DNA of 64,000 bases from Armatimonadota bacterium (GTDB lineage: Bacteria > Armatimonadota > Zipacnadia > Zipacnadales > UBA11051), in NCBI GenBank assembly GCA_013178155.1, contig JABLXH010000005.1, forward strand, positions 1 to 64,000. Reading direction: 5' to 3'. Below, piece after piece: positions 17,225 to 36,507 of the stretch. Position 1 is the first letter of the stretch, and each line of letters opens with the position of its first letter. The position numbers were made by a program, and so were the translations under genes. A model generated the notes under the pieces. It was given only the letters and a program-made list of their open reading frames with translations, was not told where the DNA came from and ran no database searches.

Positions 17225-18166
17225 ATGGCCAGCATTCGCTGGGAAGGCCCTGACATCACCATCGAGACCGACTGTCTCCTGGCGACAGTTGCCACGGAGG
17301 GGTACGTAAGCGGCGTCAAGGCAGGAACGCTGCTGGACAAGCAGACGGGCGCGTTTGACCTGGGCTTTGGGTTGGACATCGTGGATTTTCTACTGGAGCC
17401 CCTGGCTGACGATGGTCAGAGTGGAGCCAGCCACGACTACGCTGGCGATGTCATGCTGCATGGGCACATGCCCAAACGCTACGTGGAACTGCCGCAGATC
17501 TGCACGCAGGCGCGATGGAGCAACGCCCAGACCTACCAGGGCAAGGGCTTCGTCGCGGTGAAGCTCTGGTGGCGATATACGGAGGCCACCTACGGTCGGA
17601 GGCCGGGGTCATTGTGGGAGCAGCACATAGTCTTCCCTGATGGACAGCGCTACTTCTTCGCCGCGGACCGCATCACGAGTGCCAACACAGTCCAGGACCT
17701 CATCCTGCGCATAGACATGCCGGGGCATCTGAAGCACACCGGCGGCGACAGCTTTGAGCAGATATACCTGAGCTATGAGGGGTACTTGCCAGGCACCGAG
17801 TTCCTGGAGGACTTCGCGCCCGACGCCAGGTTTCTCTACCAGCGCGACAATGCTCACATCCCCGAACGGATGATCCGGGCGTATCAGGTCACGCTGGAGG
17901 GAAGGCCCGGCCCGTGGCTGGCGGGAATGACGCTGCAGCCAGCAGCCGTGAGCGCGGCCTGGTGTCACCAGCGGGGGTATGTCTGCTTCATTCAGGAGAT
18001 CGGGCAGTGGCCGGTCGCGGCTGGGGAGAGCTTCGGGGCCGCTTACGTCATCGGCTGGTTTGACGACCTGCGCGAGATGCAGGCCGTCTATGACCGGCAC
18101 AAGGGGGCGGGGGGCATCAGGCTGCAGGGGGCGCCCGACGCTGTGCGCTGGGAGTGGACCGACTAA
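17225..18166 (+). CDS. Hypothetical protein, possible carbohydrate-active beta-sandwich
   Basis: The 313-residue protein has no signal peptide. It is rich in aromatic residues and predicted beta strands ([40 protein letters not shown]), reminiscent of sugar-binding or lyase-like sandwiches, but I see no known catalytic motif. It lies between a membrane protein and a GH4 gene and ends 102 bp before the latter. The neighbourhood suggests a role in galactoside handling, by context only. Confidence 0.65.
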
Positions 18167-18183
18167 CCCCATGGCCGCGCCGG

Positions 18184-18212
18184 TTGACTCGCCTTAGCGC
18201 ACGGCATACAAT
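18184..18212 (+). promoter_or_regulatory. Sigma70-type promoter for the GH4-galT genes
   Basis: TTGACT (18184-18189), a 17-bp spacer and TACAAT (18207-18212) match the consensus at five of six positions in each box. The predicted transcript begins near 18219, about 50 nt before the GH4 start. Confidence 0.6.
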
Positions 18213-18267
18213 CCCTCGGGTCGGCGCTCGCCGGCTCCACCGTCAACAGAGAGGACCGCAAGACTCT

Positions 18268-19602
18268 ATGGCTAAGATCGCCTTCATTGGTGCAGGCAGT
18301 TTCGGCTTCACCCGGACGCTGGTCAAGGACATCCTGACTTTCGACAGGATGGCCGACGCCGAACTGGCACTCATGGACATTGACCCGGAGCGCCTGGAGT
18401 ACAGCAGACTGGCGTGCGAGCGGATCGTGCGCGAGGGGAACTACCCCGCCAAGGTCACTGCCACCCTCGACCGGCGCGAGGCGCTGGAGGGGGCTGACGC
18501 CGTACTGGTCACCATTCTCGCTGGCAGCGTTCAGGTCTGGCGCCACGACATCGAGATCCCCAAGCAGTTCGGCGTAGACACCAACGTCGGGGACACACGG
18601 GGGCCGTCGGGCATCTTCCGCGCCCTGCGCACTATCCCGGTCATGGTCAGCATCTGCAAGGACATGGAAGAGCTGTGTCCCAAAGCAGTCATGCTCAACT
18701 ACACCAACCCCATGGCCATGAACTGCCGAGCCATGCAGCGATCCACGAGCGTGGCGGTCAGCGGCCTTTGCCACAGCGTGCAGGGCACTGCCCACATGCT
18801 GGCCCACTGGATCGGGGCCAAGCCCGAGGAGATTGACTACGTCTGCGCCGGCATCAATCACCTCTCGTGGTTCATCAAGTTCCTGTGGAAAGGCGAAGAC
18901 GCCTACCCGCTGATAAGGAAGGCGATGAAGCGGAAGGAGGTCTACGAGCACGAGAAGGTGCGCAATGAGATGTTCTTGGCCTTCGGCTACTATGTGACCG
19001 AGTCCAGCGGCCATAACTCCGAGTATAACGCCTGGTTCCGCAAGCGCCCGGACCTGATCCAGAAATACTGTCTGGACACCAGCGAACACACGGGCTGGAA
19101 CCCCGGTGAGTATGCCTACATCCTGAAGCACTACCTGGCGGCCGAGAAAGGCTGGAAGAAGGGCATCCAGGACTGGCTCAATGACCCACGGCCACTGAAT
19201 CTGGCACGCGGACACGAGTACGCCGCTTCGATCATCAATGCCTGGCTCGGGGGCGAGACCTTCCTCTTCAATGGCAACGTGCCCAACACTGGTCTAGTGA
19301 CCAACCTGCCGCCCGATTGCTGTGTTGAGATCCCCGTTTTCGCCACTCGCGGCATGCTCAACCCCGTCTACGTGGGAGCTTTGCCGCCCCAGTGTGCAGC
19401 GCTGACTGCGCTCCAGGTCGCTGTGGAAGAGATGGCCGTAGAGGCCGCGCTCACGGGCAACCCGGAGATGGTTTACCATGCCATCTGCCATGACCCGCTG
19501 ACGGCGGCGGTGCTCTCGCTGGCCGAGATTCGGGAGATGGTCAAGGCGATGCTGAAGAAGAACGAGAAGCACTTGCCGCAGTTCAAGACGATCAAGTTCT
19601 AG
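18268..19602 (+). CDS. GH4 family glycosidase (alpha-galactosidase type)
   Basis: ATG 18268 gives 444 residues, normal for GH4; upstream in-frame codons are noncoding. GH4 enzymes use NAD and a divalent metal in a redox-elimination mechanism. Visible are the NAD-binding GAGSFGF (8-14), NYTNPMA (144-150), the metal-ligand Cys-His motif GLCHSVQG (Cys168-His169) and GINHLSW with ligand His198. CHSV is the signature of the MelA-like alpha-galactosidase subgroup rather than phospho-glucosidases, so an unphosphorylated galactoside substrate is likely. The enzyme is cytoplasmic. With GalT just downstream it would feed galactose into the Leloir pathway. Confidence 0.88.
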
Positions 19603-19620
19603 GCGCTAACGAGCCCACGC

Positions 19621-19697
19621 ACCTCACCCCGGGCCTTTGGCCAACCCTCTCCATGGAGCTTGCTCGCAGGCTCAGTGGAGCGGGCACGGGGTGAGGT
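19621..19697. repeat. REP-like palindromic element
   Basis: Perfect 10-bp outer arms ACCTCACCCC (19621-19630) and GGGGTGAGGT (19688-19697) enclose an inner imperfect palindrome. The layout resembles the dispersed CCTCACCCC...GGGGTGAGG intergenic repeats of many high-GC genomes. Only one copy is seen here, so repeat status is inferred. It lies between the GH4 and galT genes. Confidence 0.5.
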
Positions 19698-19741
19698 GCT
19701 GTCTGTGGCCGTACCCAGGCTGCCGCCCGGAGACGCGACCA

Positions 19742-20782
19742 ATGCCTGCCTTCTCACTTGCCGACCACCCACACCGCCGTTACAACGCCTTGACCGGGGA
19801 GTGGCTGCTGGTCTCGCCCCATCGGGCCAAGCGCCCGTGGTCGGGCCAGGTGGAGGAGGTGCCCTCGGAAGTTCGGCCCCCGTATGACCCCGCCTGCTAC
19901 CTGTGCCCCGGTAACGTGCGTTCCAGCGGCGAGCGCAACCCCAACTACACCTCTACCTACGTCTTTGACAATGACTTCATGGCTCTGCTACCAGACACGC
20001 CCGAGGGCGAGGTGCGGCAGGGCGACCTGCTGCGGGCGTCAGCCGAGCGGGGGCTATGCCGCGTCATCTGCTTCTCACCGCGCCACGACCTGACCCTGGC
20101 GCAGATGACCGTGGAGCAGATCCTGCCGGTCGTCGAGGTCTGGGCTGGGCAGACGCTGGAGATCGGGGCCCGTCCCGAGATTGGCTATGTGCAAGTGTTT
20201 GAGAACAAGGGCGCAATGATGGGCTGCAGCAACCCGCATCCGCACGGGCAGATCTGGGCCACCGAGCACCTGCCCAACGAGCCCGCCAGGGAGCTGGCCC
20301 GGCAGGAGGCCTACCAGCAGGCCCACGGCCGTTGCCTCCTGTGCGACTACCTGGAGCTGGAGTTGGCGCGCGGGGAGCGGCTGGTGTGTGCCAACGACCA
20401 CTTCGTGGCCCTCGTGCCCTTCTGGGCTGTCTGGCCCTTCGAGACGCTGGTGCTCCCCCGAGAGCACGTGACCGACATACCCTGTCTGGACGTCAGGCCG
20501 CGGCAGGACCTGGCCGACATCCTGCGCCGCCTGACCGTCCGCTACGACAACCTCTTCCAGGTCTCATTCCCGTATTCCATGGGCTGGCACCAGCAGCCCA
20601 CGGATGGCGATGAGTATTCCTGCTGGCACCTGCACGCCCACTTCTACCCGCCACTGCTGCGCTCGGCTACGGTCCGGAAGTTCATGGTGGGCTTCGAGAT
20701 GCTTGGGACCCCCCAGCGCGACATCACCGCCGAGCTTGCGGCCGCCCGCCTGCGAGAGATGAGCGAGACGCGGTTCAGGTAA
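19742..20782 (+). CDS. galT: Galactose-1-phosphate uridylyltransferase
   Basis: ATG 19742 yields 346 residues, the usual GalT size. GalT exchanges UMP between UDP-glucose and galactose-1-phosphate in the Leloir pathway. The active-site HPHGQ is at 166-170, with His168 as the expected nucleophile. A zinc CxxC (Cys52, Cys55), the [14 protein letters not shown] context and a second His cluster ([11 protein letters not shown]) are all present. It follows the GH4 galactosidase across a REP-like element, so both probably serve galactoside breakdown. No galactokinase or epimerase is visible in this window. Confidence 0.93.
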
Positions 20783-22494: not shown

Positions 22495-23712
22495 TCACAC
22501 CTGGCCGGTCACGCAGTGAACCTCGACCGCGCGGAGGCGCGTCTCACCGTCGCTCTCCAGAACGCGCAGCCGCACCGTGTGCGCGGTCACGGGTGGGAAT
22601 TGGCAGATGGCCTTGTGGCCGATATTGCGGCCCTGCCAGAGCGTGATGGCCGGGTAGTCGCCATAGGGGATGTCCAGCACGAAGCGGCGACAGTGTTCTC
22701 CCGCGCTAAGATCCTCCTGCAGCACGATGTGGTCTATCAGCGTCGGCCTGGCGGGTGACCACTGCCAGCCATCGGTGGTCGGCTGCCAGTCGGCCAGCGT
22801 CGCCAGCGGCGATCCGAAGCGCCGCCGCAACTCTGCCCCGAACTCCAGCAGTCGCGCCCGGTCGCGGTCCGGAAGCAGACCCCGGCGGTCGGGGCCGATG
22901 TTAATGAGCAGGTTGCAGCCGCGGCCCACCGAGTAGTAATGAAGCCCCAGCAGTTCATCGAGGCCCTTGACCGTGTCCTCGTCCTGGTCGCTGTAGAACC
23001 AGTTGGCGGCACGCATCCGGCAGTCACACTCGGCCGGCAGCCAGCGCCCGGCGAACTCGCCCTCGGTCACGGTATTCCAGCAGGGCACGGGTGCAAGACC
23101 CGCCTCGTTGCCAACCCAGCGGAAGTCGGGATCAGCCATGTTGAAGATCATCACCCTGGGCTGCAGCCTCCGCACCTCGGCGACGATGCGTGGCCAGTCG
23201 TACTCATGCCCCTCGCTTCCGCAGCCATCGAACCACAGGATGTCTATGTCGCCGTAGGGCTGCAGGATCTCGCTGATCTGGTTGATGAAGTAGTCGTCAT
23301 AGGCCCTCTCATCCTGATAGATGCTGGTGCCGCCCCACTCGGCCGGCGAGTAGTACAGCCCACAACCCATGCCGTGCTTGTGGCAGGCGGTCACGTACTC
23401 GCCCACCACATCGCCCTGGCCGGCGCGCCACGACGACGAGGCCACTGAGAAATCCGTGTAGCTGCTGGGCCAGTTAGCGAAGCCGTCGTGGTGCTTGGCG
23501 GTCAGCACCAGGTACTTCATCCCGGCTTCTTTGGCCGTCAGCACCCAGTCCTCGGCATCAAAGGCCGTGGGCTGAAAGGCCTCGGGGTCCATCGGCTTGC
23601 CGTCCCAGTCGCGATGCCCCTCGTAGAACGTACGGATGCCAAAGTGCAGAAAAAGCCCCATCTCCCAGTCCTGGTATTCTAGCTGGCGCGGGGTTGGGAT
23701 GGCGGTGTTCAT
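22495..23712 (-). CDS. GH29 alpha-L-fucosidase-type enzyme
   Basis: The 405-residue protein has no signal peptide, so it is probably cytoplasmic. AGGAG precedes ATG 23712. GH29 enzymes remove alpha-L-fucose by retention. Family features include WEMGLFLHFGIRTFY near the N-terminus, YLVLTAKHHDGFANW (68-81) and the nucleophile strand IDILWFDG (Asp162). The late GRGCNLLINIGPDRRG loop and a C-terminal beta domain (about 310-405) are also typical. The acid/base residue is poorly conserved in GH29 and I cannot place it. The gene is 56 bp downstream of the secreted nitrilase-like gene on the same strand. Confidence 0.88.
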   Translation of the reverse strand: MNTAIPTPRQLEYQDWEMGLFLHFGIRTFYEGHRDWDGKPMDPEAFQPTAFDAEDWVLTAKEAGMKYLVLTAKHHDGFANWPSSYTDFSVASSSWRAGQGDVVGEYVTACHKHGMGCGLYYSPAEWGGTSIYQDERAYDDYFINQISEILQPYGDIDILWFDGCGSEGHEYDWPRIVAEVRRLQPRVMIFNMADPDFRWVGNEAGLAPVPCWNTVTEGEFAGRWLPAECDCRMRAANWFYSDQDEDTVKGLDELLGLHYYSVGRGCNLLINIGPDRRGLLPDRDRARLLEFGAELRRRFGSPLATLADWQPTTDGWQWSPARPTLIDHIVLQEDLSAGEHCRRFVLDIPYGDYPAITLWQGRNIGHKAICQFPPVTAHTVRLRVLESDGETRLRAVEVHCVTGQV

Positions 23713-23768: not shown

Positions 23769-26027
23769 CTATTGCGCTGCCTTCCATATCACCCCGTACA
23801 GCTCCGGCCGTCGCGCCGCCAGGAGCACCTCACGCAGGTCATTGGTCTCCGTGGGCATCTGGGTGTCCTGGTACTCGGGCAGGTAGCCACCAGGCTCATG
23901 CGGCTGCCACTGGCGGCTGTAGCGGCGGGGGCGGTTCAGGTCGAGGTCTACCACGGCGGACACAATGCCGCTACCCAGGTAGTCGCTCTGCGCGACGGCC
24001 ACGCCGCAGGGGTCAACAATGGTGCTGCGATGCAGGGCCTCGCTGGACGTGTGGGTGTCCTCGACCCGGAAGAACAGGTTGTCCATGCAGCGGCTGATGT
24101 TGCGCAGGTTGCGGTGGATAGCGTCCGGACCCCAGTCCTGGGTCAGGTCGAACATGATGTCGGCGCCCTTGACCCCATAGGCCCGGTCCAGCTCCACCAT
24201 CCAGTTGTCGGCGCAAATGCGCACCGCGACGCGCCCGAAGTCCGTCTCAAGGATGGGGGTCTCGGTGCCGCAGATCTGCTCCGGGTGGGTCTGGACGATC
24301 TTGAAGTAGCGTCCGACCTCCTGGCCGTCACGCCCGTACAGGATGGCCTCGTTGCGCTCCAGGCGGTCCACCACGCCGCCGACCAGGACGTACATGCCAT
24401 ATTGCTTGGCCTTCTCGGCGATGCGTCGCAGGTTCTCCTTCGCGGCTGCGGTTTGCCTCTGAACCTGCTCCTGCGGCCCGCCGCTGATCCAGACCATCTC
24501 GTAGGTTGATGCGATGTCGGTGCCGAGGCGGCCCGCCTCGTCCAGGGCCTGAAGCAAGGCGTCAAACCCCATGGCCGGAATGGCGGTCAGACGGACCTTA
24601 CGCTTGGCCCATTGGCGCGGTGCCAACGGCTGCACCGGTTCCACCAGGCACTTCGCTCCGGGCAGCGTGGACGGTCCGCGTCCGGCCCCGAGCAGGGCGC
24701 TATGAGGGATGAGTGCCGTCGCCACCGAGCCCTTGCGCTCCGTATAGGCGATGGGCATGCCCTCGCGGTTGATGATGTAGGAGCGGCCGATAGGGCTGCC
24801 GCGGTACGTGGGCATGAAGCTGGTGATCCAGCCCTCTTCGGCGCGCGAGTAGCGACTGCAGGCGATGAAAGTGCTGAAGTCCTGGGCCCGGCCCTGCTGG
24901 GGGAAGTCCTGCAGGTACTCGTCTTCCACCGGCTCCCGCTCCTGGCTCCAGAAGATCATCGTGGCGCCCTGGGCGGTGTAGGCCCAGTCTATCTCGGGGA
25001 AGTAGCGGTCGCTGCCGATCTTCATGCCTATCTTGGCGAAGTCAGTCTGAAAAACCGGGAGTTCATCGCCTAGATCTAGAGTCTCATCCGGCAGCTTGTG
25101 GGACTTGCGGTACTTTCCCACCAGCGCGCCCTGCCGGTCGAGCAGGAAGGAGGTCACATAGGTCTTGTCTCCGTCGCGTTCGCGGAGGTTGCCGATGACG
25201 TACATGCCGTACTGCTTGGCCTTGGCGGCCAGCGTCTCGCTGAGGGGGCCCGGGATGGTCTCGCCGTCGGTCTGGATGCACTCCATGGGCAGGCACACGA
25301 TGTCGGAGCCCTGCGTCCCGGCCTCATCCAGACGGTCCAGGACATAGGGCAGGGACCGTCCCTCGTCACTGAGGGGAAGGGTCACGACGCTGGCACGCAC
25401 ACGTGCGAACCGTCGCCGCCTGGCCTCGTCGGCCAGCCGGGCCGAAGTCCCCTCCTCAGCGGTCACCACGACGTCGTCCAGCGTGATGTCGGCCGTAGTC
25501 TCCGGCGCAGTTGTGACGGCCACGATGAGACTGGTGATGAACGCCTCCTCGGCCCTGCGGTGTCCAACTTCACACCAGTTGCGGAGCTCCTCGTGCAGGT
25601 TTGGCAGGCGCAGCTGCTGCCACTGCTGGGAAGCACCGACACCGGGGCCGTGGTAGATGAACCCGAAGGGGCTGATCGCGACCTTGATGCTGATCGGGAC
25701 ATTGCTTCTGACCCAGACCGAGGCCTCACGAAGCTCCGGCAGAATCGGAATCGGCGGCGATAGGTTGACGTGGTAGTAGCTGAGCCGCGCGGGCGTCTCC
25801 GGTCCGTAACGCAGCCGCAGGTGCATCCCCGGACCCTCGCGGCCCGCCTCCGGCTCGACAGCGTTGACGAGAACCTCTGGGTCATCGCCGTAGGTCTTCG
25901 GCAGAGAGTAGCTGGCCGAGAGCCCGTCGAAGCTCAGGTGTACCACTCTCTCGTCGGCAAGCGAGGGGGCCACGAACACAGTTGGCGAAAGCAGCAACGG
26001 CAGCACACGCAATGGCGAGAGGGACAT
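23769..26027 (-). CDS. Secreted protein with two carbon-nitrogen hydrolase (nitrilase) domains
   Basis: I choose ATG 26027: AGGAGG is 4 nt upstream and a signal peptide follows (MSLSPLRVLPLLLSPTVFVA); a longer frame to 26264 reads leader DNA. Of 752 residues, about 25-195 form a beta-sandwich like carbohydrate-binding modules. Two nitrilase-fold domains follow, about 205-445 and 477-725. The second keeps the Glu-Lys-Cys triad (Glu510, Lys576, Cys605 in VRICADNW). The first keeps Glu249 and Lys308 but has Gly338 where Cys is expected (MKIGSDRYFPE), so it should be inactive. A periplasmic or surface amidase is unusual, since nitrilases are normally cytoplasmic. The substrate is unknown; the fucosidase neighbour suggests an amino-sugar or glycan amide. 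Confidence 0.82.
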   Translation of the reverse strand: MSLSPLRVLPLLLSPTVFVAPSLADERVVHLSFDGLSASYSLPKTYGDDPEVLVNAVEPEAGREGPGMHLRLRYGPETPARLSYYHVNLSPPIPILPELREASVWVRSNVPISIKVAISPFGFIYHGPGVGASQQWQQLRLPNLHEELRNWCEVGHRRAEEAFITSLIVAVTTAPETTADITLDDVVVTAEEGTSARLADEARRRRFARVRASVVTLPLSDEGRSLPYVLDRLDEAGTQGSDIVCLPMECIQTDGETIPGPLSETLAAKAKQYGMYVIGNLRERDGDKTYVTSFLLDRQGALVGKYRKSHKLPDETLDLGDELPVFQTDFAKIGMKIGSDRYFPEIDWAYTAQGATMIFWSQEREPVEDEYLQDFPQQGRAQDFSTFIACSRYSRAEEGWITSFMPTYRGSPIGRSYIINREGMPIAYTERKGSVATALIPHSALLGAGRGPSTLPGAKCLVEPVQPLAPRQWAKRKVRLTAIPAMGFDALLQALDEAGRLGTDIASTYEMVWISGGPQEQVQRQTAAAKENLRRIAEKAKQYGMYVLVGGVVDRLERNEAILYGRDGQEVGRYFKIVQTHPEQICGTETPILETDFGRVAVRICADNWMVELDRAYGVKGADIMFDLTQDWGPDAIHRNLRNISRCMDNLFFRVEDTHTSSEALHRSTIVDPCGVAVAQSDYLGSGIVSAVVDLDLNRPRRYSRQWQPHEPGGYLPEYQDTQMPTETNDLREVLLAARRPELYGVIWKAAQ

Positions 26028-26095
26028 TGCGCCTCCTGGGCTAACCGTGGTCATTGGACTGGTCCCCATTTCGCTGCCTCTGCAGAATCGCCTGC

Positions 26096-26239: not shown

Positions 26240-26319
26240 TCTTTGCTTCCTGCCAGGGAGCCATAGTCGTTACATGGGGATTGTGCCGGGCCGATACTGG
26301 AGACGAAGGAGGACAAGCC

Positions 26320-26614: not shown

Positions 26615-28531
26615 ATGGTCATTGCGATCTTCCTGTTCTTCGTGCTGTTTGTGTTGGGTCTGTCGTTCTACCTGGGCAGCAAGACACGCACTTCCTCCGG
26701 CTACTACGCCGCGGGAGGGCAGATCCACTGGGGTGTCAACGGCATTGCCTTTGCCGGCGACTACCTGTCCGCTGCGTCCTTCCTGGGCATCTGCGGGATG
26801 ATCGCCACCGTGGGCTACGACGGGTTCCTCTACTCCATTGGCTACCTGGCCGGGTGGATCGTGGCCCTCTTCGTGGTCGCTGAGCCGCTCAAGCGCCTGG
26901 GGCGCTTCACCTTCACCGACGCGGTGGACTCCAAGTACAACTCCCGCGGCATCAAGCTCGCCGCAGCCATCAGCACCCTTGTTGTCTCCGTCTGCTACCT
27001 GATTCCGCAGATGGTGGGCGCCGGAGTGCTGGTCACGCCGCTGCTGGGCCTGGCTCACCACTGGGGCGTCATCATGGTCGGGGCCATCGTCATCACGATT
27101 GTGGCTACGGCCGGCATGACCTCCACCACCTACGTGCAGTTCCTCAAGGGCGCGATGCTGATCGTCTTCTCCTTTGCGCTTGTCTGGTGCGTCTGCGCCC
27201 GCGGCCTGAGCACGAAGCCTGACCAGGGCGGCAAGGTGCCGTTCTATGAGTACAAGTCGCTCCCGGCCAGCGAGGCTGGCGGCCAGATCACCGTGGCTGA
27301 ACCTGGCTGGGAGGTCGTGGCCGTCCAGGAGGTCCCCGCGGCCAAGGGATCGTTCGCCAAGCTGCGCAAGGACGGCGTGGAGACCTGGTGGTATGTTGAC
27401 CACAAGGATGGGCAGGTCCTGTTGCGTGAGACCCAGTCACAGGTCACGGATAGCCAGGGGCGCAAGTTCGTCAACGGCGCTCCGGCGGGTGAGGGCAACG
27501 CCTTGCGACAGGTCAGTAACATCGAGGTATTGCGAGGCGAGACGGTCGCGCCGCCGGGGAGCATCTCCCCGTTCGGGCTGCTCTCGGCCATGGGGGACCC
27601 CAACACGCAGGTGCGGCGCTGGAAGGATGTCGCCTTCGATGACGAGACCGGGGCCAAGGTAAAGGTCTTCTATCCGACCCTGACCCCTGGCAACAAGCTC
27701 ATGCGCCCCGGCCTGAAGTTCAAGGTCGAGGGAACGCCGTTGGAGAAGCTGGACTTCATCTCCCTTATGCTGGCGCTCTTCCTGGGGACGGCGGCCCTGC
27801 CGCACATTCTGATCCGCTACTACACGGTCCCCAACCCCGCCGCGGCACGCAAGTCCACCATCGTAGCCATCGCTGCCATCGGCTTCTTCTACATCCTGAC
27901 CCTCTTCATGGGCCTGGGAGCCATGGTCAACGGGGTGCTCAACCCCGCCGACAGCAACATGGCTGCCCCGCTCCTGGCGCGTTCCTTCGGCAACTTCCTC
28001 TTCGCGGTGATCTCAGCGATTGCCTTCGCTACGGTGCTCGGCACGGTAAGCGGCCTGATCGTCGCCGCCTCGGGTGCGGTGGCCCACGACCTCCTCGACC
28101 GCTTCATCGGCCTGGGGATGGGCGACAAGCAGAAGATCCGAGCCGGCAAGATCTCTGCCTTTGCGATCGGTGCCGTAGCCATCTTGCTGGGTATCATCTT
28201 CAAGGGCGTCAACGTCACCTTCCTGGTAGGCCTGGCCTTTGCCGTGGCTGCCTCGGCCAACCTCCCGGCGGTGCTGATGCTGCTGTTCTGGAAGGGCACG
28301 ACCGCCAAGGGTATCACCGCCTCGATCTTCATGGGGATCATCTCCTCGCTGGGCCTCATTGTCTTCTCGCCAGACCTTTACAAGCTCTACGGGCTCGACC
28401 CGACCACGGCGCCGATCCCCTTCAGCAACCCGGGCATCGTTTCCATCCCCCTGAGCCTCATCACGCTGGTTGCAGTGTCACTCCTGACACGCAACGACAA
28501 CTCAGCTCAGGCCGAGACGGCCACGCCCTAG
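26615..28531 (+). CDS. Sodium:solute symporter (SSSF, ActP-like) with large soluble insert
   Basis: The 638-residue product has a typical start and GGAGGG Shine-Dalgarno. SSSF features include the N-terminal GYYAAGGQIHWGVNGIAFAG, AGDYLSAASFLG and about 12-13 helices. The DUF485 partner and sequence style suggest a monocarboxylate (acetate/pyruvate-type) substrate, but that is inferred. Unusually, a hydrophilic insert of about 180 residues (199-378) separates helix GAMLIVFSFALVWCVC from DFISLMLALFLGTAALPHIL, replacing a normally short loop. The insert looks beta-rich (WYVDHKDGQVLLRE). The gene ends at a strong terminator. Confidence 0.87.
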   Translation: MVIAIFLFFVLFVLGLSFYLGSKTRTSSGYYAAGGQIHWGVNGIAFAGDYLSAASFLGICGMIATVGYDGFLYSIGYLAGWIVALFVVAEPLKRLGRFTFTDAVDSKYNSRGIKLAAAISTLVVSVCYLIPQMVGAGVLVTPLLGLAHHWGVIMVGAIVITIVATAGMTSTTYVQFLKGAMLIVFSFALVWCVCARGLSTKPDQGGKVPFYEYKSLPASEAGGQITVAEPGWEVVAVQEVPAAKGSFAKLRKDGVETWWYVDHKDGQVLLRETQSQVTDSQGRKFVNGAPAGEGNALRQVSNIEVLRGETVAPPGSISPFGLLSAMGDPNTQVRRWKDVAFDDETGAKVKVFYPTLTPGNKLMRPGLKFKVEGTPLEKLDFISLMLALFLGTAALPHILIRYYTVPNPAAARKSTIVAIAAIGFFYILTLFMGLGAMVNGVLNPADSNMAAPLLARSFGNFLFAVISAIAFATVLGTVSGLIVAASGAVAHDLLDRFIGLGMGDKQKIRAGKISAFAIGAVAILLGIIFKGVNVTFLVGLAFAVAASANLPAVLMLLFWKGTTAKGITASIFMGIISSLGLIVFSPDLYKLYGLDPTTAPIPFSNPGIVSIPLSLITLVAVSLLTRNDNSAQAETATP

Positions 28532-28554
28532 CCGCACTGGCTCAAGAACGCGAC

Positions 28555-28585
28555 GGGGCGCCGGACCACCACGGTCCGGCGCCCC
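28555..28585. terminator. Strong bidirectional intrinsic terminator
   Basis: A perfect 13-bp stem (28555-28567 with 28573-28585, loop ACCAC) followed by TCTTCTCTC lies between the convergent symporter and zinc-ribbon genes. It is the best terminator in the window. Confidence 0.9.
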
Positions 28586-28642
28586 TCTTCTCTCGGTAAC
28601 CAGGGCAGGCTCCCCGCCTGCCAGTGTCACGATCAGCGCGTC

Positions 28643-29299
28643 TTACCCCTCCGGCGCTTTGTGGCCGCACTCACCGCAGAACTTCGCCTCGGCCTTGAGC
28701 TTTGCCCCGCACTCGGTACAGTGTTTCTCCGCGACCAGCTTCGCGCCGCACTCGCCGCAAAACTTGGCGTTCCTTTCCTGCGGCGCGCCACACTCGGGGC
28801 AACTGGCGACAACCGTCTCCCGCCAGGCCTTCTCCTTGAGCATCTCGCGGTCTTCGTTGGTCATCCGTGAGTGGGCGTGGATCTCCTCGACAGCCCGGTC
28901 GGACTGCGCCGCCGACATCTCCACCCCCAGGTCGGGAGCGCACTCCTTGCAGAGCCCCTTGGTCTGGTTCCAGCAGCTCTTCTGGCACACCCAGGCAGAG
29001 CAGCGCGGGCACTGTCGGAAGTTGGGCTTGATCTCCTCCACGGCAGCGCGGTACGCCTTATCGTGAGCCTGTTCCCAGGTCGCCGAACGGGCCCGCTCGC
29101 TGAGATCGGCGGCACTGCTGAGCACACCGCCAAAGAGGCTGCCTGCCGCGTTGAGCACGGAGCTAACCCGCCCACTGACCGAAGGCTTGAAGGGAGTGCG
29201 GATCCCGTTGTTGCAGCGGTCGCAGTAGAACTCGAACTGGAAACCCTCGTCCGTCGAGAGGTCCCCCACGTTGCGCACGAACTCGATGTTCTCGGACAT
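28643..29299 (-). CDS. Multi-zinc-ribbon protein
   Basis: The 218-residue protein has GGAGGG upstream of its ATG. Cysteine pairs occur at 26/29, 97/100, 105/109, 117/120, 167/170, 181/184, 194/197 and 208/211. These could form four zinc knuckles; the last two are DZR/zinc-ribbon repeats (FCGECGAKL, HCTECGAKL). Between them lies a Gly/Ala-rich helix (about 45-75), possibly membrane-associating. A central long helix has charged residues. No enzymatic motif is seen. It is divergent from a glycosidase operon with a 132-bp gap. Functional assignment is not possible; such proteins often act as adaptors. Confidence 0.75.
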   Translation of the reverse strand: MSENIEFVRNVGDLSTDEGFQFEFYCDRCNNGIRTPFKPSVSGRVSSVLNAAGSLFGGVLSSAADLSERARSATWEQAHDKAYRAAVEEIKPNFRQCPRCSAWVCQKSCWNQTKGLCKECAPDLGVEMSAAQSDRAVEEIHAHSRMTNEDREMLKEKAWRETVVASCPECGAPQERNAKFCGECGAKLVAEKHCTECGAKLKAEAKFCGECGHKAPEG

Positions 29300-29431
29300 G
29301 TTGCCGCCCTCCTACGGGTCACTCGCCAGACCTTCGCCGTGGAGGCGCTCTCGTCCTGCTCCGCTCCAGGGAGGGGGCCGCCGTCCGTGCGGAGAAGCGA
29401 CCCGGACTTCTCGCCGGGAGGTGCAGACCCG

Positions 29432-30910
29432 ATGTACCGGCTCCTCGTCTCAGGCGTTGTAACGCTGGGGCTACTGGCCATCACGTGCGCCAGCGCCGCC
29501 ACACTCGTGCCGGCCGAGGACCGCGACGCCGTACTGCACAACCCGGACATGGGGTGGGTGCTGTACGAGAACTACCCGATAGACCAGGGAGCGGCCTCGA
29601 CGCTGGCCACCATGCCGGACGCTGACTGGAGCGGGGTAGACCACGTCGCCATCATGTTCTCCTGGGCTGATGTGGAGCGTGAGCCGGATGTCTATGACCT
29701 CTCCAAGGTGGATTACGCCTACGACTGGTGGCAACAGCGGGGCAAAGGCCTGCAGCTTCGCATGAGCACAGCCTCGCTGCTGTGGTGGAACAACGCGGGA
29801 CGCGGCACCGGGGTCCCGCAGTATGTGCTGGACCGGATGCCGCCCGAGCAGAAGCAGGTCCGCCAGTGCGAGGGTCTCAGCTACACCGATGTGGACACTC
29901 GCAACGCCTACTACCGGGAACGCCTGAAGCGGTTCCTGCAGGTTGTGGCCGCGCACTTCGCGCCTGACGGCGACCGCCCGGTGAGCCTCGTGGACCTGCG
30001 CGGCTTCGGGCTATGGGGTGAGTGGCACACCGGCTTCCAGTACCCTTCGCTCGCGGAGCGGCGCGAGGCCCTGGAGGGGGTACTCGATTGCTGGTCAGCG
30101 GCTTTCCCGCAGCACCTGTTGGCCCTTAGCTACTCCTATGACCCCGACAGCCCCAAGAGCTATTGGGATGGTCCAACAGACCGCTATGACCCCGCCTTCA
30201 CTTCCACCTACCAGGAGTTCCTGTACTTCAGCGCCTTCGACTATGCGCTGACCAAGACCAACATCACCTTCAGGCGCGACGGCTGCGGTGGCGCAGTGCA
30301 TTCTAACGAGCGGAGGTTCTGCGAGGAGGCCTTCGCGGCGGGACGAGGCCCGTTCATGTCCGAGTTCGTGGGCGGCTACCGCGCGGCGCTCGCCGCCGGC
30401 AATGCCTGGGTCACAGCGATGGTCGCTGACGCCTTGAGCCTGCATCCCAACTATGTGAACCTGCTGGGCTGGCAATGCCAGGACGCCCACGATTTCCTGG
30501 TACAGAGACCGGACCTGATCGCCCATGGACTCCGCACCATGGGTTACCGCCTGGTCCCCGTTCGGGTGAACTGCCCCCAGCGGCTCGTGCCGGGACGCCC
30601 GGCGCGTGTGACCGTGAACTGGGTGAACCGGGGGGTGGGAAGAGCTCTGCGTGACTTTGCGGTGTCGTTCCGTCTCACCGATGCGGAGGGGCAGCACGCC
30701 GCAGACTCGACATCAACTACGGTGCCAAGTAGCACCTGGGTGCAAGGGCAGACTTACCGTGTCAACACGACGGTGAGCTTTGCCACCTTGCCCGTGGGGA
30801 AGCCGGCGCTCTGGCTGCGGCTGACCGATCCCCGTGACAACCGGTCCATCGCCCTGCCGCTACGGGGCGGGACCCCGGACGGCTTCTACCCCCTGGGCCA
30901 ACTGCCCTGA
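29432..30910 (+). CDS. Secreted DUF4832 glycosidase-like protein
   Basis: ATG 29432 with GGGAGG 9 nt upstream gives 492 residues starting with a signal peptide (MYRLLVSGVVTLGLLAITCASA). The N-terminal LHNPDMGWVLYEN is typical of DUF4832/DUF4874 proteins, which are predicted TIM-barrel glycosidases. The strand GFGLWGEWH places Glu197 where GH-A clan enzymes have acid/base or nucleophile Glu. The last ~100 residues are an Ig-like beta domain. No assayed homolog is known to me, so the sugar is unknown. It begins a three-gene rightward operon with GH5 and SGNH genes. Confidence 0.78.
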   Translation: MYRLLVSGVVTLGLLAITCASAATLVPAEDRDAVLHNPDMGWVLYENYPIDQGAASTLATMPDADWSGVDHVAIMFSWADVEREPDVYDLSKVDYAYDWWQQRGKGLQLRMSTASLLWWNNAGRGTGVPQYVLDRMPPEQKQVRQCEGLSYTDVDTRNAYYRERLKRFLQVVAAHFAPDGDRPVSLVDLRGFGLWGEWHTGFQYPSLAERREALEGVLDCWSAAFPQHLLALSYSYDPDSPKSYWDGPTDRYDPAFTSTYQEFLYFSAFDYALTKTNITFRRDGCGGAVHSNERRFCEEAFAAGRGPFMSEFVGGYRAALAAGNAWVTAMVADALSLHPNYVNLLGWQCQDAHDFLVQRPDLIAHGLRTMGYRLVPVRVNCPQRLVPGRPARVTVNWVNRGVGRALRDFAVSFRLTDAEGQHAADSTSTTVPSSTWVQGQTYRVNTTVSFATLPVGKPALWLRLTDPRDNRSIALPLRGGTPDGFYPLGQLP

Positions 30911-30921
30911 CGGAGGTCGCG

Positions 30922-32151
30922 ATGCAGACAGCGGGATGGGTTGCGCCAGCGATGGCGCTTCTGCTGACGGGAGGCATGGCCATGGCCGAGGGCTTCGTAA
31001 CTGCCGAGGGGGCGCGGCTGATGCTCGACGGCCGTGAGTATCGCGCTGTGGGTGTGAACGTGCCGCATCTACACCAGGCCTACCTCGGGACCTGGTTCCA
31101 CATCGCAGAGATCTACGGCACGCCCGAAAAGGCCCGACAGGCTATCGTGGCCGCCATCGAGGATGCAGGACGGAGTGGACTGCGTTTCATCCGGTTCTTC
31201 GCTGACCCAGGGTACCCGCGGGACCGCGCCCTGCTGTATGACCGTGACCCCGAACGCTATTGGCAGGGGATGGACGAGGTCTTCGCGCTCTGCCGACAAC
31301 ATGGCGTTAAGCTCGTCCCGTCGCTGGGCACCATCCCCGGCCCTTACTTGCACTACGGCGAGACCGGCCAGGCGATACTGGACCCTGGCTCGAGGACCTA
31401 CGAGGCCGTCCACCGGTATGTCCGGGAGTTCGTCACCCGGTACCGGGACGACCCGACCGTGCTGATGTGGGAACTGGTCAACGAAGCCATGCTGCGCGCC
31501 GATGTCGAGATGGTCGGGCGGAAGCTTCTCCCGGCGGGCGTATACCCGGAGGGGGCGACGGTGCGCGAAGACGGTACGCTCGAGGACAGCCTGACCTGGG
31601 ATATGCTGCAGCGTCTCTACCGGGAGCAGACCGCGTTCATCAAGTCGCTGGACCCCAACCACCCGGTGACCAGTGGCGACGCCGGGGTGCGGCCGGAGTG
31701 TACCAGCCGCCGCGAGACCTTCCCCAACCTCGCGTTCAGGCGCGACACCTGGCGCGAGTGGCTCGGCAACAACCTGCTCTCACAGCCCGAGCCGCTGGAT
31801 GTCTTCAGTTTTCACTTCTATGGGAATCCAGAGCCGGCCGGCCCCGGTGAGGCGTGGCAGGGGATGACTACGCTGGAGGCCATGCGCCGTGTAGTGCGCT
31901 GCGTTCACGCCGCCGGCGCCCCGGTCTTCATTGGCGAACTGGGCGCCTCGCCCAGCAACCAGGCTGACCCGGCCGGCAAGTGGCTGTGCTCGGCTCTCGA
32001 CGCCATGGAGGCGGAGGGGACGTCGCTGATGGCCCTGTGGGTCTGGCACTTTCCCTGGCAGCCCGAATATACCCTGGACAGCGCCACGTTTCCGGCAGTC
32101 GTGCAACGGGCAGCGGAGTTCAACCGTGCCTACGCCGGCGGGGGCACTTGA
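30922..32151 (+). CDS. Secreted GH5-type (beta-mannanase-like) glycoside hydrolase
   Basis: The 409-residue product begins 11 bp after the DUF4832 gene and has a signal peptide (MQTAGWVAPAMALLLTGGMAMA). It is a GH-A TIM barrel: LRFIRFFADPG on an early strand, MWELVNEAM with acid/base Glu188, FSFHFYG with the aromatic near the active site, and VFIGELGAS with nucleophile Glu339. The overall sequence is closest in my reading to endo-beta-mannanase-like GH5 members. The single-domain layout lacks a CBM. It would act outside the cytoplasm on beta-linked polysaccharide. Confidence 0.82.
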   Translation: MQTAGWVAPAMALLLTGGMAMAEGFVTAEGARLMLDGREYRAVGVNVPHLHQAYLGTWFHIAEIYGTPEKARQAIVAAIEDAGRSGLRFIRFFADPGYPRDRALLYDRDPERYWQGMDEVFALCRQHGVKLVPSLGTIPGPYLHYGETGQAILDPGSRTYEAVHRYVREFVTRYRDDPTVLMWELVNEAMLRADVEMVGRKLLPAGVYPEGATVREDGTLEDSLTWDMLQRLYREQTAFIKSLDPNHPVTSGDAGVRPECTSRRETFPNLAFRRDTWREWLGNNLLSQPEPLDVFSFHFYGNPEPAGPGEAWQGMTTLEAMRRVVRCVHAAGAPVFIGELGASPSNQADPAGKWLCSALDAMEAEGTSLMALWVWHFPWQPEYTLDSATFPAVVQRAAEFNRAYAGGGT

Positions 32152-32209
32152 CGCGCAGGACAGACTGGTGTTTCATATGCTGACTCATCTCCCCGGGAGG
32201 ACGTAGCTG

Positions 32210-33562
32210 ATGCTCTTTCTGGCCCTGCTGCTCGCGTTGTGTCTCATCGCTGGTGTCGCCTGTGCCATGCCTCCGCACGATGGGATGCCCATCACGGTTG
32301 CCGGGCAATGGACGGTCAAAGTCGGCCCCGGCGAAGTCAGGCTGGATGGCCGCACTATCCGCCTCCCCCAGGCTGTCCGGTTGCACATCGCCCGTCCGCG
32401 ATCGGTTCACGTCCATGACGAGGCCCATGCCGGCCTGCCCCTTTTCAGACCGGACGCGGCTTCCTGGGTGCGTGGTCTGCACCCGCGACCGCTGGCGGCG
32501 CAGGAGTGCGTGGCGACCGGCCTCCTGGTTCCGGGAACCATGCGCATCAAGGCCGGGCCCGGCGCAGGCCAGGAGTTCGTTCAGGGGCGTGACTGGGCAA
32601 TGGACGAGTACTGGACCGCGGTGGGCCGCCTCGAAGGGGGCAGCATCCGCCCTGACCAGCAGGTCTACCTTGACTACGAGTATGTGCCTTGCCGACTGGA
32701 CAGCATCGTTGTTGATGCCGGGGGCGAGGTCAGGGTGGTGCAGGGGACACCCGCCGCCAGCCTCGCCCATCCGCCGAGTCTGGCCGACGGTGAGACCGCC
32801 GTCGCACGGGTGTGGCTGCAGGGGCCGACAGAGAGACTGAGTGACCTGAATCTGTACCCCATTGACCCCACCGTAGGCGGCCCCCTGGTCGGCGACGGGA
32901 GTGCGGCACGTCTCCTCCCGAGGACTCTCGCCAAGCTCCGCAACGGGGAGGAGGTCACGATCGTGGCCTGGGGTGACAGCGTGACCTGCGGCGGAGGGGT
33001 CGGCGCCGACCAGAGCCTCTGGTACCAGTACCGTTTCGCGGCGGCGCTACAAAAGCGCTTCCCGCAGGCAAAGATAAGGATGTTGACTGCCGGCTGGGGG
33101 GGCTACAGCAGCCGGGCTTACATGGACCAGCCACGCGGTGCGGAGAAGGACTTCGTACGGGACGTCCTGGAGCCCAAGCCTGACCTGGTGACCATCGAGT
33201 TCGTGAATGACGCGTACCTGAGTGGCGACGCCTTTGAGAAGCAATACACCGAGATCATGGGGCACATGAACCGCATCGGCGCCGAGGTCATCCTCATCGC
33301 GCCACATCTCGTTCGGCCGGACTGGTTGGGCGCTGCCGACGAGCCGCGTTTCGACAACGACCCCCGCCCGTACGTCCAAAGCTTGAAGGCCTTCGGTGCC
33401 CGGCACCATATCGCGGTCGCCGATGCCTCGGCTCTCTGGTGTCGCCTGTGGCGCCAGGGCATCCCCTACATCACCTATGAGGCCAACTGGATCAATCACC
33501 CTGATACCCGGGGCATGCAGCTCTTCGTGGACGCGCTCCTGCGGCTGTTCCCGGAGAGGTAG
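32210..33562 (+). CDS. Secreted SGNH/GDSL hydrolase with N-terminal beta domain
   Basis: The start ATG 32210 is preceded by GGGAGG. The 450-residue product has a signal peptide (MLFLALLLALCLIAGVACA), about 200 residues of beta-rich sequence and then an SGNH catalytic domain. Block I is VAWGDSVTCGGG (Ser nucleophile), block II GWGGYSS, block III EFVNDAY (oxyanion Asn), and the C-terminal NWINHPDTRG carries the likely catalytic His. Such enzymes often deacetylate xylan, mannan or pectin. Its place 58 bp after GH5 fits a debranching esterase. Confidence 0.82.
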   Translation: MLFLALLLALCLIAGVACAMPPHDGMPITVAGQWTVKVGPGEVRLDGRTIRLPQAVRLHIARPRSVHVHDEAHAGLPLFRPDAASWVRGLHPRPLAAQECVATGLLVPGTMRIKAGPGAGQEFVQGRDWAMDEYWTAVGRLEGGSIRPDQQVYLDYEYVPCRLDSIVVDAGGEVRVVQGTPAASLAHPPSLADGETAVARVWLQGPTERLSDLNLYPIDPTVGGPLVGDGSAARLLPRTLAKLRNGEEVTIVAWGDSVTCGGGVGADQSLWYQYRFAAALQKRFPQAKIRMLTAGWGGYSSRAYMDQPRGAEKDFVRDVLEPKPDLVTIEFVNDAYLSGDAFEKQYTEIMGHMNRIGAEVILIAPHLVRPDWLGAADEPRFDNDPRPYVQSLKAFGARHHIAVADASALWCRLWRQGIPYITYEANWINHPDTRGMQLFVDALLRLFPER

Positions 33563-34353: not shown

Positions 34354-36507
34354 TCAGTCCTCACCGCCTGCAAACCGCTCGAACTCGGCCAGTGCCTCGA
34401 GGCGACCGGGCATCCCCTCGGCTGGCAGGGAGTTTGCGGCCGCCCAAGCCCCATAGAACCGGCTCATCCGGCGCTGCGTGCGTGCCTGAAGACGCACAGC
34501 CACAAGCTGCTTCTCTAACTGCTCCCGTGGCGTGAGACGCGGCGGGGCGCCGGCCTCGGGCGTGTGCCAATGCCTATAGACCGACTGCTGGTCAGCAGGC
34601 ATGGCCTCCAGTGCCTGTTCGAGCAGGCTCATCGCTCGCGCGAAGTGCTCCGCCGCCTGGCCCAAAGCGGTGCCCAGGGCTCGGGCTCGCGCCACGTCAT
34701 CGCGGTGCGGAGCGTAGTCGCGGCCCCGCCAGGCCTTGGGCGGCTCGGCCCCCGAAAGGGTGATCTGCTGCAGGTTCTGGAGCGTCAGTGGAGCATCCAG
34801 CACCGGACCGGACCACGCAGGCCGCAGCAGGTGCCAGTAGTACGTGTGATCGGACTGGACTCGCTGAGCCGCCTCGATCTCTTGCCAGGCCTGGGCCACC
34901 GCCGCAGCCGCTTGCGGTCCATACTGATCCCGGGCCAGTCGCCGCGCGAACGCCCACGCTGCCCGGGGTGAGGTGGTCTCTGGATGGAAAATGAAGTGAC
35001 GCAGCGCAATGGCATTGGCGGGCACGTACTCGGCCTGTGTCCCCCACTGGTCAAAGAAGCCGTCGGCGCCCATCAGACCCCAGCGGCGCAGCTTGGCCGC
35101 AAGTCCCAGCGGAAAATCGTATAGCTCAGTCTCGGGGAAGACTGTGTCATCACCCCAGAACACAATGTCATAGCCGAGGAAGATCTGACCAGCCTTCTGG
35201 ACGGCACGACAGCTTGCCAACAGCGGCTCCGTGAGCTTGCGGTCAAAGGACCATGCCTCGCCGTCGGGGGGGCTGGTAAGACCCGTGCCAGCCGGCAGAG
35301 ACGTCTGCAGGGCCAGGAAGTCGGGGTCGTTTCGGAAGTGCCAGCCCCAGCCGACCGTAAGCACCCGGAAGTCCGGCCGCACAGCCCGTCCCTCCTCAGC
35401 CAGCAAGGCCAGCAGGCGACCATACTGCACCAGTTTGCTCACACCCCGGTGCCGCTCACAACGGTCCGGATCGCAGAACTCGCCATTGGAGTCGCAGGTG
35501 AAGACGAGAACCATGGCGATCTGCGGAAACTCGCGAAGCAGGCGCCGGGTCATCGCCCGATAGGCCTGTTCCACCAGCGGGTGCCCGAGGCACAGCACCT
35601 TCCCCTGACCTGTCCCCGAGTCAGAGAGACACTCCGCCGGGAAGCGCGTGAGGAAGGCCTCGCGACTGCTTTCCGGCATCCATGCCCCGCCCTGGCACGG
35701 CATCTCGCAAAGCCACAGGGCAGCCCGCAGGCCGAACTCATCACACCAGGCCAGATAGCGCCGCAACGCATCGCGGTTGCGCTCCCGCACATCGGGGGGA
35801 GTTGCGTCAGGGAGTTCGGCCGACGGCACGAAGCTCATCAGTGTCTTTTCAGACATCCAGTCATGGGACAGGTGCGCGACGTTCGCACCGCAACGAGCGA
35901 TGAACTCGAAGTCGCTGCGCCGGTAGCCCAGGAAACCGCCCCGCACCCTTGGGTGCAGCAGCCGCAGATCCATAGCTGGGCTGCCTCGCATCTCCAGGGT
36001 CTCGGGGACACGCCCGTGCCTGGCGATCACGTCCTCAAGCTCAAAGACGCCATACAGTGCCGCTCGCGGGTTGGAGCCGACAATGACGATGCAGCCGTCT
36101 GCGGCTGCAACTTCAAAGGCATCGTGGTCCGGATCTGCGGCGATGCGGCTCGGTGGCGGCTCAGCGGTCGAGCGAGTCAGCCGAGGGGCTTCCGGAGGGG
36201 TGGAGATGATGACAGTGCCAGGCTGCGGCTGGGGGCGGGGTGTGCCCGAGCCGCGCACGATGACCCGTCGGCCCTGGTGGTCCGACAGGAAACGCGCCAG
36301 TTCCTCGGCAGCCGTACGCAGCGCTGGCTCTGACAGGTCAGTCTGGATGCGGCGGATAGTCAGGGGCTCGGCCATGGAGCTCGTGCCTCCCTGTGCACGG
36401 GCGTCGCGAACAGCCCCGATAGCCAGTAGCAAGAGCGCGGCTGCCGCAGACAGATGCCTGTGGAAGCGGGGTTCCGACAGGTTCTGCCTGCGGCAGCAGA
36501 TAGTCAT
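34354..36507 (-). CDS. Secreted glycosidase-like protein with alpha-glucuronidase-type N-terminus
   Basis: The 717-residue product has an N-terminal signal (SAAAALLLLAIGAVRDARA after an arginine-rich N-region). Residues about 50-175 resemble the GH67/GH20 N-terminal alpha/beta domain (AAEELARFLSDHQGRRVIV, ALYGVFELEDVI). A TIM-barrel-like region follows (VAHLSHDWMSE, MVLVFTCDSNGEFCDP, TVGWGWHF, FLGYDIVFWGDDT). Asp/Glu pairs at the strand ends are plausible catalysts but I cannot assign them firmly. The helical C-terminus is typical of this group. It starts 18 bp after the fhs stop on the same strand. Confidence 0.68.
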   Translation of the reverse strand: MTICCRRQNLSEPRFHRHLSAAAALLLLAIGAVRDARAQGGTSSMAEPLTIRRIQTDLSEPALRTAAEELARFLSDHQGRRVIVRGSGTPRPQPQPGTVIISTPPEAPRLTRSTAEPPPSRIAADPDHDAFEVAAADGCIVIVGSNPRAALYGVFELEDVIARHGRVPETLEMRGSPAMDLRLLHPRVRGGFLGYRRSDFEFIARCGANVAHLSHDWMSEKTLMSFVPSAELPDATPPDVRERNRDALRRYLAWCDEFGLRAALWLCEMPCQGGAWMPESSREAFLTRFPAECLSDSGTGQGKVLCLGHPLVEQAYRAMTRRLLREFPQIAMVLVFTCDSNGEFCDPDRCERHRGVSKLVQYGRLLALLAEEGRAVRPDFRVLTVGWGWHFRNDPDFLALQTSLPAGTGLTSPPDGEAWSFDRKLTEPLLASCRAVQKAGQIFLGYDIVFWGDDTVFPETELYDFPLGLAAKLRRWGLMGADGFFDQWGTQAEYVPANAIALRHFIFHPETTSPRAAWAFARRLARDQYGPQAAAAVAQAWQEIEAAQRVQSDHTYYWHLLRPAWSGPVLDAPLTLQNLQQITLSGAEPPKAWRGRDYAPHRDDVARARALGTALGQAAEHFARAMSLLEQALEAMPADQQSVYRHWHTPEAGAPPRLTPREQLEKQLVAVRLQARTQRRMSRFYGAWAAANSLPAEGMPGRLEALAEFERFAGGED

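Follow-up and report, generated by a model that had tools for sequence, protein, structure and literature searches.

The window (the whole stretch of 64,000 nucleotides analyzed here) carries on its minus strand one open frame encoding 752 amino acids at 23769-26027; the initial annotation had given precisely this span without stating its strand. The features of this gene and of the gene downstream of it are the following:

23769..26027, minus strand: tandem nitrilase-like gene, starting with the ATG at 26027, encoding 752 aa, and ending with the stop codon at 23769-23771
26032..26037, minus strand: AGGAGG, resembling a ribosome-binding site, four bases upstream of the ATG
25956..26027, minus strand: putative signal peptide, residues 1-24 (cleavage site placed by eye, S-L-A before D25)
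25458..25955, minus strand: N-terminal beta-sandwich, residues 25-190 (structure model; no Pfam family)
24663..25412, minus strand: domain 1, nitrilase fold with predicted disabled active site, residues 206-455 (Pfam, model, fold match)
25284..25286, minus strand: Met248 codon, at the canonical catalytic-Glu position of domain 1 (alignment, profile comparison)
25278..25283, minus strand: Glu249 and Cys250 codons (alignment)
25104..25106, minus strand: Lys308 codon, catalytic Lys retained in domain 1 (alignment, 29/29 family A)
25014..25016, minus strand: Gly338 codon, replacing the nucleophile Cys of domain 1 (alignment)
23772..24608, minus strand: domain 2, nitrilase fold with predicted complete triad, residues 474-752, ending in an RRPELY tail (Pfam, model, profile match)
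24498..24500, minus strand: Glu510 codon, domain 2 (alignment)
24300..24302, minus strand: Lys576 codon, domain 2 (alignment)
24213..24215, minus strand: Cys605 codon, sole intact nucleophile (28/28 family-A rows reaching it)
22495..23712, minus strand: GH29-type alpha-L-fucosidase gene, 56 bases downstream of the tandem gene (PF01120, E 3e-47)

Relatives of the encoded protein were compared in an alignment of 88 rows, comprising 29 tandem proteins similar to that of the window (family A), 16 tandem proteins of a second type (family B, mostly about 560-600 aa), one intermediate tandem (L074, labelled C), and 42 single-domain relatives. Several loci were dropped before counting, including L031, whose frame is broken and masked though its domain 1 carries Gly, the fragments L072, L078, and L080, and L048-L055 and L061-L063, which are duplicate copies of the same loci. 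L077 and L079, both from Pirellulales, were dropped as well, as they look like internal deletions or joins of domains 1 and 2 and may be assembly faults: in L077 (4532-6007) the middle of domain 2 is missing, and in L079 (5438-6409) the front of domain 1 is joined to the back of domain 2 near a shared TDFG stretch. Both resemble in-frame internal deletions, which could reflect either natural recombination or faulty assembly. The single-domain loci L123, L140, L142, and L145-L149 stayed outside the alignment (a motif listing shows the Cys in L123, L140, L142, L145, and L146 and does not include this site for L147-L149), L041 was used in the quick tree described below and is absent from the alignment, and L084, L085, L088, L089, and L091 figured in the quick tree only, or in part.

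The leader of the 752-aa protein reads MSLSPLRVLPLLLSPTVFVAPSLA up to the putative cleavage site and continues with DE. Although the frame stays open upstream to another ATG at 26264, the relatives' leaders line up with the one that begins at 26027, which fits the start given above and the signal peptide proposed initially. A hydrophobic leader was found in 20 of the 29 family-A rows; in the remaining nine, the N-terminus is truncated at a contig end or the start is ambiguous. Judging from these leader-like N-termini, the tandem protein is apparently exported.

Against the Pfam CN_hydrolase model (PF00795), the whole protein scored 130.5 bits in two stretches (cut-off 23.2), and it is thus a member of the nitrilase superfamily. 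Together with a beta-sandwich spanning residues 26-190 in the structure model, the two stretches reproduce the domain order described in the initial annotation. No NCBIfam family scored above its cut-off for the tandem protein: N-carbamoylputrescine amidase (TIGR03381) reached 55.1 bits against an equivalog cut-off of 410.25, deaminated glutathione amidase (NF033621) 35.1 bits against 355, and apolipoprotein N-acyltransferase Lnt (TIGR00546) 17.5 bits against 132.9, and all three assignments were rejected. Modelling from 14 close rows gave a weak structure (pLDDT 71.5); the model used here was built from the 88-row alignment and had a mean pLDDT of 93.2 and a pTM of 0.90, a score that is silent on which face pairs. 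When this model was compared with solved structures by VIA-align, its residues 210-460 matched 3ivz_A with a Z score of 30.8 and an rmsd of 2.4 A over 233 residues, which indicates an alpha-beta-beta-alpha nitrilase fold for the modelled domain 1. The Foldseek and VIA-align lists were filled by nitrilase matches (in VIA-align those of domain 1), domain 2 and the beta-sandwich being barely probed in this way. A profile search of solved structures with domain 2 placed an N-carbamoyl-D-amino acid hydrolase (6lei_A, E 5.5e-16) at the top, a nearness that appears to go no further than shared membership in the superfamily.

The two domains differ in their active-site residues. In domain 2 of family A, Glu510 is present in all 29 rows and Lys576 and Cys605 in all 28 rows reaching them, so that the alignment upholds the originally proposed Glu510-Lys576-Cys605 and shows a complete Glu-Lys-Cys triad in this domain. 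The domain-2 Cys is also present in all 16 family-B rows and in the one C row reaching it. In domain 1, the Cys is missing from all 46 tandem rows and present in all 42 single-domain rows, some of which were picked as best Pfam matches, a choice that favors Cys-bearing rows. The nucleophile position is occupied by Gly in every family-A row and in L074, and by Gly (11), Thr (4), or Ser (1) in family B; Gly338 in place of Cys, as well as the retained Lys308, had been recognized initially and reappeared in the alignment. The catalytic Glu of domain 1 had been assigned to Glu249, which is off by one: the corresponding column is 248, where all 42 single-domain rows have Glu, where the window protein has Met, and where a comparison of the domain 1 and domain 2 profiles sets Met248 opposite Glu510. 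This position is Gln in 14, Met in 11, and Glu in 4 of the 29 family-A rows, and Glu in none of the 16 family-B rows (one of which has a gap). Position 249 in family A is Glu in 25 rows and Val in four, and an acidic residue is found at 248 or 249 in 28 of 29. Based on these comparisons, the triad of domain 1 (Met248, Lys308, Gly338) has lost two of its three residues. In the structure model, Gly338 is the first residue of helix 338-342 and Cys605 that of helix 605-609, and, as modelled, the disabling change in domain 1 is not an indel shift. A second Glu typical of the superfamily occurs in domain 1 (Glu315) in 28 of 29 family-A rows and in domain 2 (residue 583, seven after the Lys) in 14 of 28.

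Phylogenetic analysis was used to examine how the tandem arose. All first domains formed one clade (100/98) and all second domains another (100/99) in a careful tree covering 63 domains, and a quick tree of 87 domains gave the same split (98 and 99, respectively) regardless of family. The hypothesis that the tandem arose independently in families A and B, by a separate duplication in family A, was rejected (p-AU 3.4e-5), and the absence of the Cys requires a single change on the tree. Because of these three observations, a single fusion, with the Cys of the first half lost once before families A and B parted, is supported. The sister of the domain-1 clade in the careful tree is a pair of single-domain proteins, L039 and L042 (99/90), both of which keep the Cys and share the motif ICMDIHYPE; descent of domain 1 from a Cys-bearing single-domain protein is likewise supported by the tree. 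The disablement of domain 1 thus appears to be old and common to the relatives, with no decay confined to one genome.

Domain 1 nevertheless seems to be under strong constraint. The mean share of the commonest letter in family A was 0.694 in domain 1 versus 0.625 in domain 2, and 44 of 234 positions were invariant in domain 1 versus 33 of 230 in domain 2. Domain 1 was nearer than domain 2 to the window protein in 11 of 14 relatives, whose rows are not independent. By these alignment measures, domain 1 is not drifting, its conservation being equal to or higher than that of domain 2. Cys250, Arg282, and Glu370 are examples of invariant residues peculiar to domain 1 of family A. Cys250, which lies two residues past the catalytic-Glu position, occurs in 29 of 29 family-A rows and in L074, in three of 42 single-domain rows, and in none of the 16 family-B rows. 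It has no invariant disulphide partner (Cys390 is replaced by Val in 10 of 29 rows, and Cys152 lies within the optional N-terminal domain), an unexpected state for a cysteine of an exported protein.

The distribution of tandem proteins was examined across genomes. In 101 genomes, made up of that of the window and those of 100 relatives, family-A matches covering the greater part of the protein were found in at least 15 and family-B tandems in at least 15. Searching genome contigs with the family-A alignment gave 45 loci. Tandems were seen in Armatimonadetes/Zipacnadia/WS1, Planctomycetota, Verrucomicrobiota (one labelled Akkermansia), Kiritimatiellota, Lentisphaerota (Lentisphaeria), and Latescibacterota. 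At E values up to 1e-40, they were found in three of 343 genomes in the phylum of L070 (Thermoguttaceae) and in two of 337 genomes in the phylum of L059 (Verrucomicrobiota), the centre genome being included in each count; tandems are therefore rare outside the group of the window. Of the 16 CN_hydrolase matches in the genome of the window, two belong to the tandem described here and others to a second tandem, which is shorter and lies on contig C187 (L118, 4201-5913). In this shorter protein and in family B in general, domain 2 keeps the Glu and the Cys (16/16 each), and no residue aligns with the catalytic Lys in any of the 16 rows. In addition, an invariant His is found two residues before the Cys (HxCGD, 14/14). 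It is possible that domain 2 of family B is a non-canonical or inactive hydrolase.

The beta-sandwich in front of the two nitrilase domains is optional; in rows such as L056 and L069, domain 1 directly follows the leader. A search of 15 N-terminal domains for carbohydrate-binding modules in Pfam gave no match at E values up to 1, which is no argument against such a module. By sequence, a single PDB chain, a beta-galactosidase, was matched at E 1.4 and none under E 1, and CenC-like carbohydrate-binding names occurred among weak viral fold matches. The beta-sandwich might be an add-on that tethers the enzyme to a glycan or a surface.

The fucosidase gene downstream is a possible operon partner of the tandem gene, in the genome of the window only. 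It had been the basis for suggesting an N-acyl amino sugar as substrate. A phmmer scan of 29 loci, many of whose flanks are short contigs, found a fucosidase only in the window and beside L075, i.e., at one of 28 other loci, and clustering of the neighbor frames of the 29 loci by BLAST revealed no type that recurs beyond close relatives, many flanks being short. Forty neighbor proteins were scanned against Pfam, 10 from the window and 30 from relative loci (out of 189 neighbor frames), and the flanking genes were mixed, including rhamnogalacturonan lyase, heparinase-like proteins, protein kinases, M19 dipeptidase, methyltransferases, and many proteins assigned to no family. Since the flanking genes show no pattern across the scanned loci, a substrate could not be derived from the neighborhood and the fucosidase argument was dropped; the proximity is a trait of the window genome and not of the family. 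Around the tandem gene, sugar-related genes at 18154-20782 and 26615-33562 on the plus strand encode a GH4 enzyme, galactose-1-phosphate uridylyltransferase, a sodium:solute symporter, a DUF4832 protein, a GH5 enzyme, and a GDSL hydrolase. A frame at 28643-29299 on the minus strand is related to a zinc-ribbon protein of the nearest genome (L093), which likewise lies beside a tandem gene there, and a 717-codon frame at 34354-36507 on the minus strand has no Pfam family at E 1e-4.

Nitrilases act as dimers or larger assemblies. We consider it rather probable that the protein is an exported fusion of an enzyme and a pseudoenzyme, in which domain 2 hydrolyses the substrate and domain 1 is a non-catalytic stand-in for the second subunit of the dimer. 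The pseudoenzyme-enzyme pair of the initial annotation is retained as a fused pair behind a putative signal peptide, with an old and shared loss of the Cys, and its amino-sugar substrate is not. Because its triad is intact, domain 2 would act on a small amide, carbamoyl, or nitrile compound outside the cytoplasm and break its C-N bond via the usual Glu-Lys-Cys thioester. Domain 1, whose sequence lacks both the nucleophile and the general base, would be incapable of such chemistry; we propose that it was kept as a replacement for the second subunit because enzymes of the nitrilase type work as dimers, and its remaining conserved pocket may bind a ligand. The pair would have arisen once, prior to the divergence of families A and B, with domain 1 descending from a single-domain protein that had the Cys. 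With the second Glu lost from half of the family-A second domains and the domain-2 Lys lacking throughout family B, hydrolysis by all tandem families is, on the aligned residues, not certain.

The higher conservation of domain 1, which is not catalytic by the usual route, would also be expected if this domain were a ligand-binding module in its own right, whose dead active site serves to take up the substrate or to detect the product and exerts control over domain 2, and not a mere dimer stand-in. The retention of Lys308 (29/29) and Glu315 (28/29) and the invariance of the family-A-specific Arg282, Cys250, and Glu370 are consistent with such a role; however, folding constraints alone could account for part of this conservation, and we regard this reading as tentative and rather unlikely. 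The same Cys250 might serve as a displaced nucleophile beside Lys308 and Glu248/249, the elbow at Gly338 having been emptied, in which case domain 1 would be active through a relocated site, and the protein would combine two nitrilase-fold enzymes, one with a redrawn triad and the other with the classic one. The conservation of Cys250 throughout family A and in L074, its scarcity among single-domain relatives and absence from family B, its position next to an acidic residue at 248 or 249, and its lack of an invariant disulphide partner would fit this idea. Nevertheless, the nucleophile elbow at the start of helix 338-342 is in its usual place and nucleophile-free in the model, family B, a product of the same fusion, has Pro at the position of Cys250, and we know of no nitrilase with a relocated site of this type, which makes an active domain 1 very improbable. 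We give the least credence to the idea that domain 2 is inactive in vivo as well, which would make the entire protein a pseudoenzyme scaffold: the missing Lys of family B and the patchy second Glu of family A point in this direction, but across several phyla no family-A row that reaches these positions lacks Glu510, Lys576, or Cys605.

The preferred reading, a hydrolase fused to a disabled partner, may be of wider use. Nitrilase-type enzymes are widely used and have been studied as homo-oligomers, in which the contribution of the neighboring subunit is hard to tell; a natural fusion with one half silent since before families A and B parted would make this question testable in a single chain. 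Automatic annotation would call two carbon-nitrogen hydrolases here, which the present analysis corrects. In addition, the tandem suggests that Armatimonadota and related bacteria carry out an amide chemistry outside the cytoplasm, one that has no name in the libraries searched. An exported tandem nitrilase whose first half was disabled once and then strongly constrained was not described in the literature searched, which covered few subscription papers; the domains belong to a known superfamily, and it is the combination of apparent export with an old dead half that was not found described.

Among known systems, domain 1 resembles in fold the Pyrococcus amidase-nitrilase PH0642 (1j31, 3ivz, 6ypa; Z about 30), N-carbamoyl-D-amino acid amidohydrolase (1erz, 6lei) is the top profile match of domain 2, and the triad of domain 2 is like that of the nitrilase superfamily (CN hydrolases, PF00795) to which both of these enzymes belong. 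PH0642-type nitrilases and N-carbamoyl-D-amino acid amidohydrolase are single-domain, homo-oligomeric, and intracellular, whereas here two unequal domains, one of them without the Glu and the Cys, are found in one apparently exported chain. In NitFhit, NAD synthetase, and Lnt, a nitrilase domain is joined to a partner of a different fold; in contrast, the partner in the tandem is a second, disabled nitrilase domain. In Poaceae, a review attributes all of the nitrilase activity of NIT4A and NIT4B to heteromers that contain both isoforms (PMC3537687), and a NIT4A/NIT4B2 heteromer is named in another paper (PMC5154151). The plant system offers a precedent for two unequal nitrilase subunits that are required together, although these are encoded by separate plant genes and form heteromers, whereas the bacterial tandem holds its two unequal halves in one fused chain.
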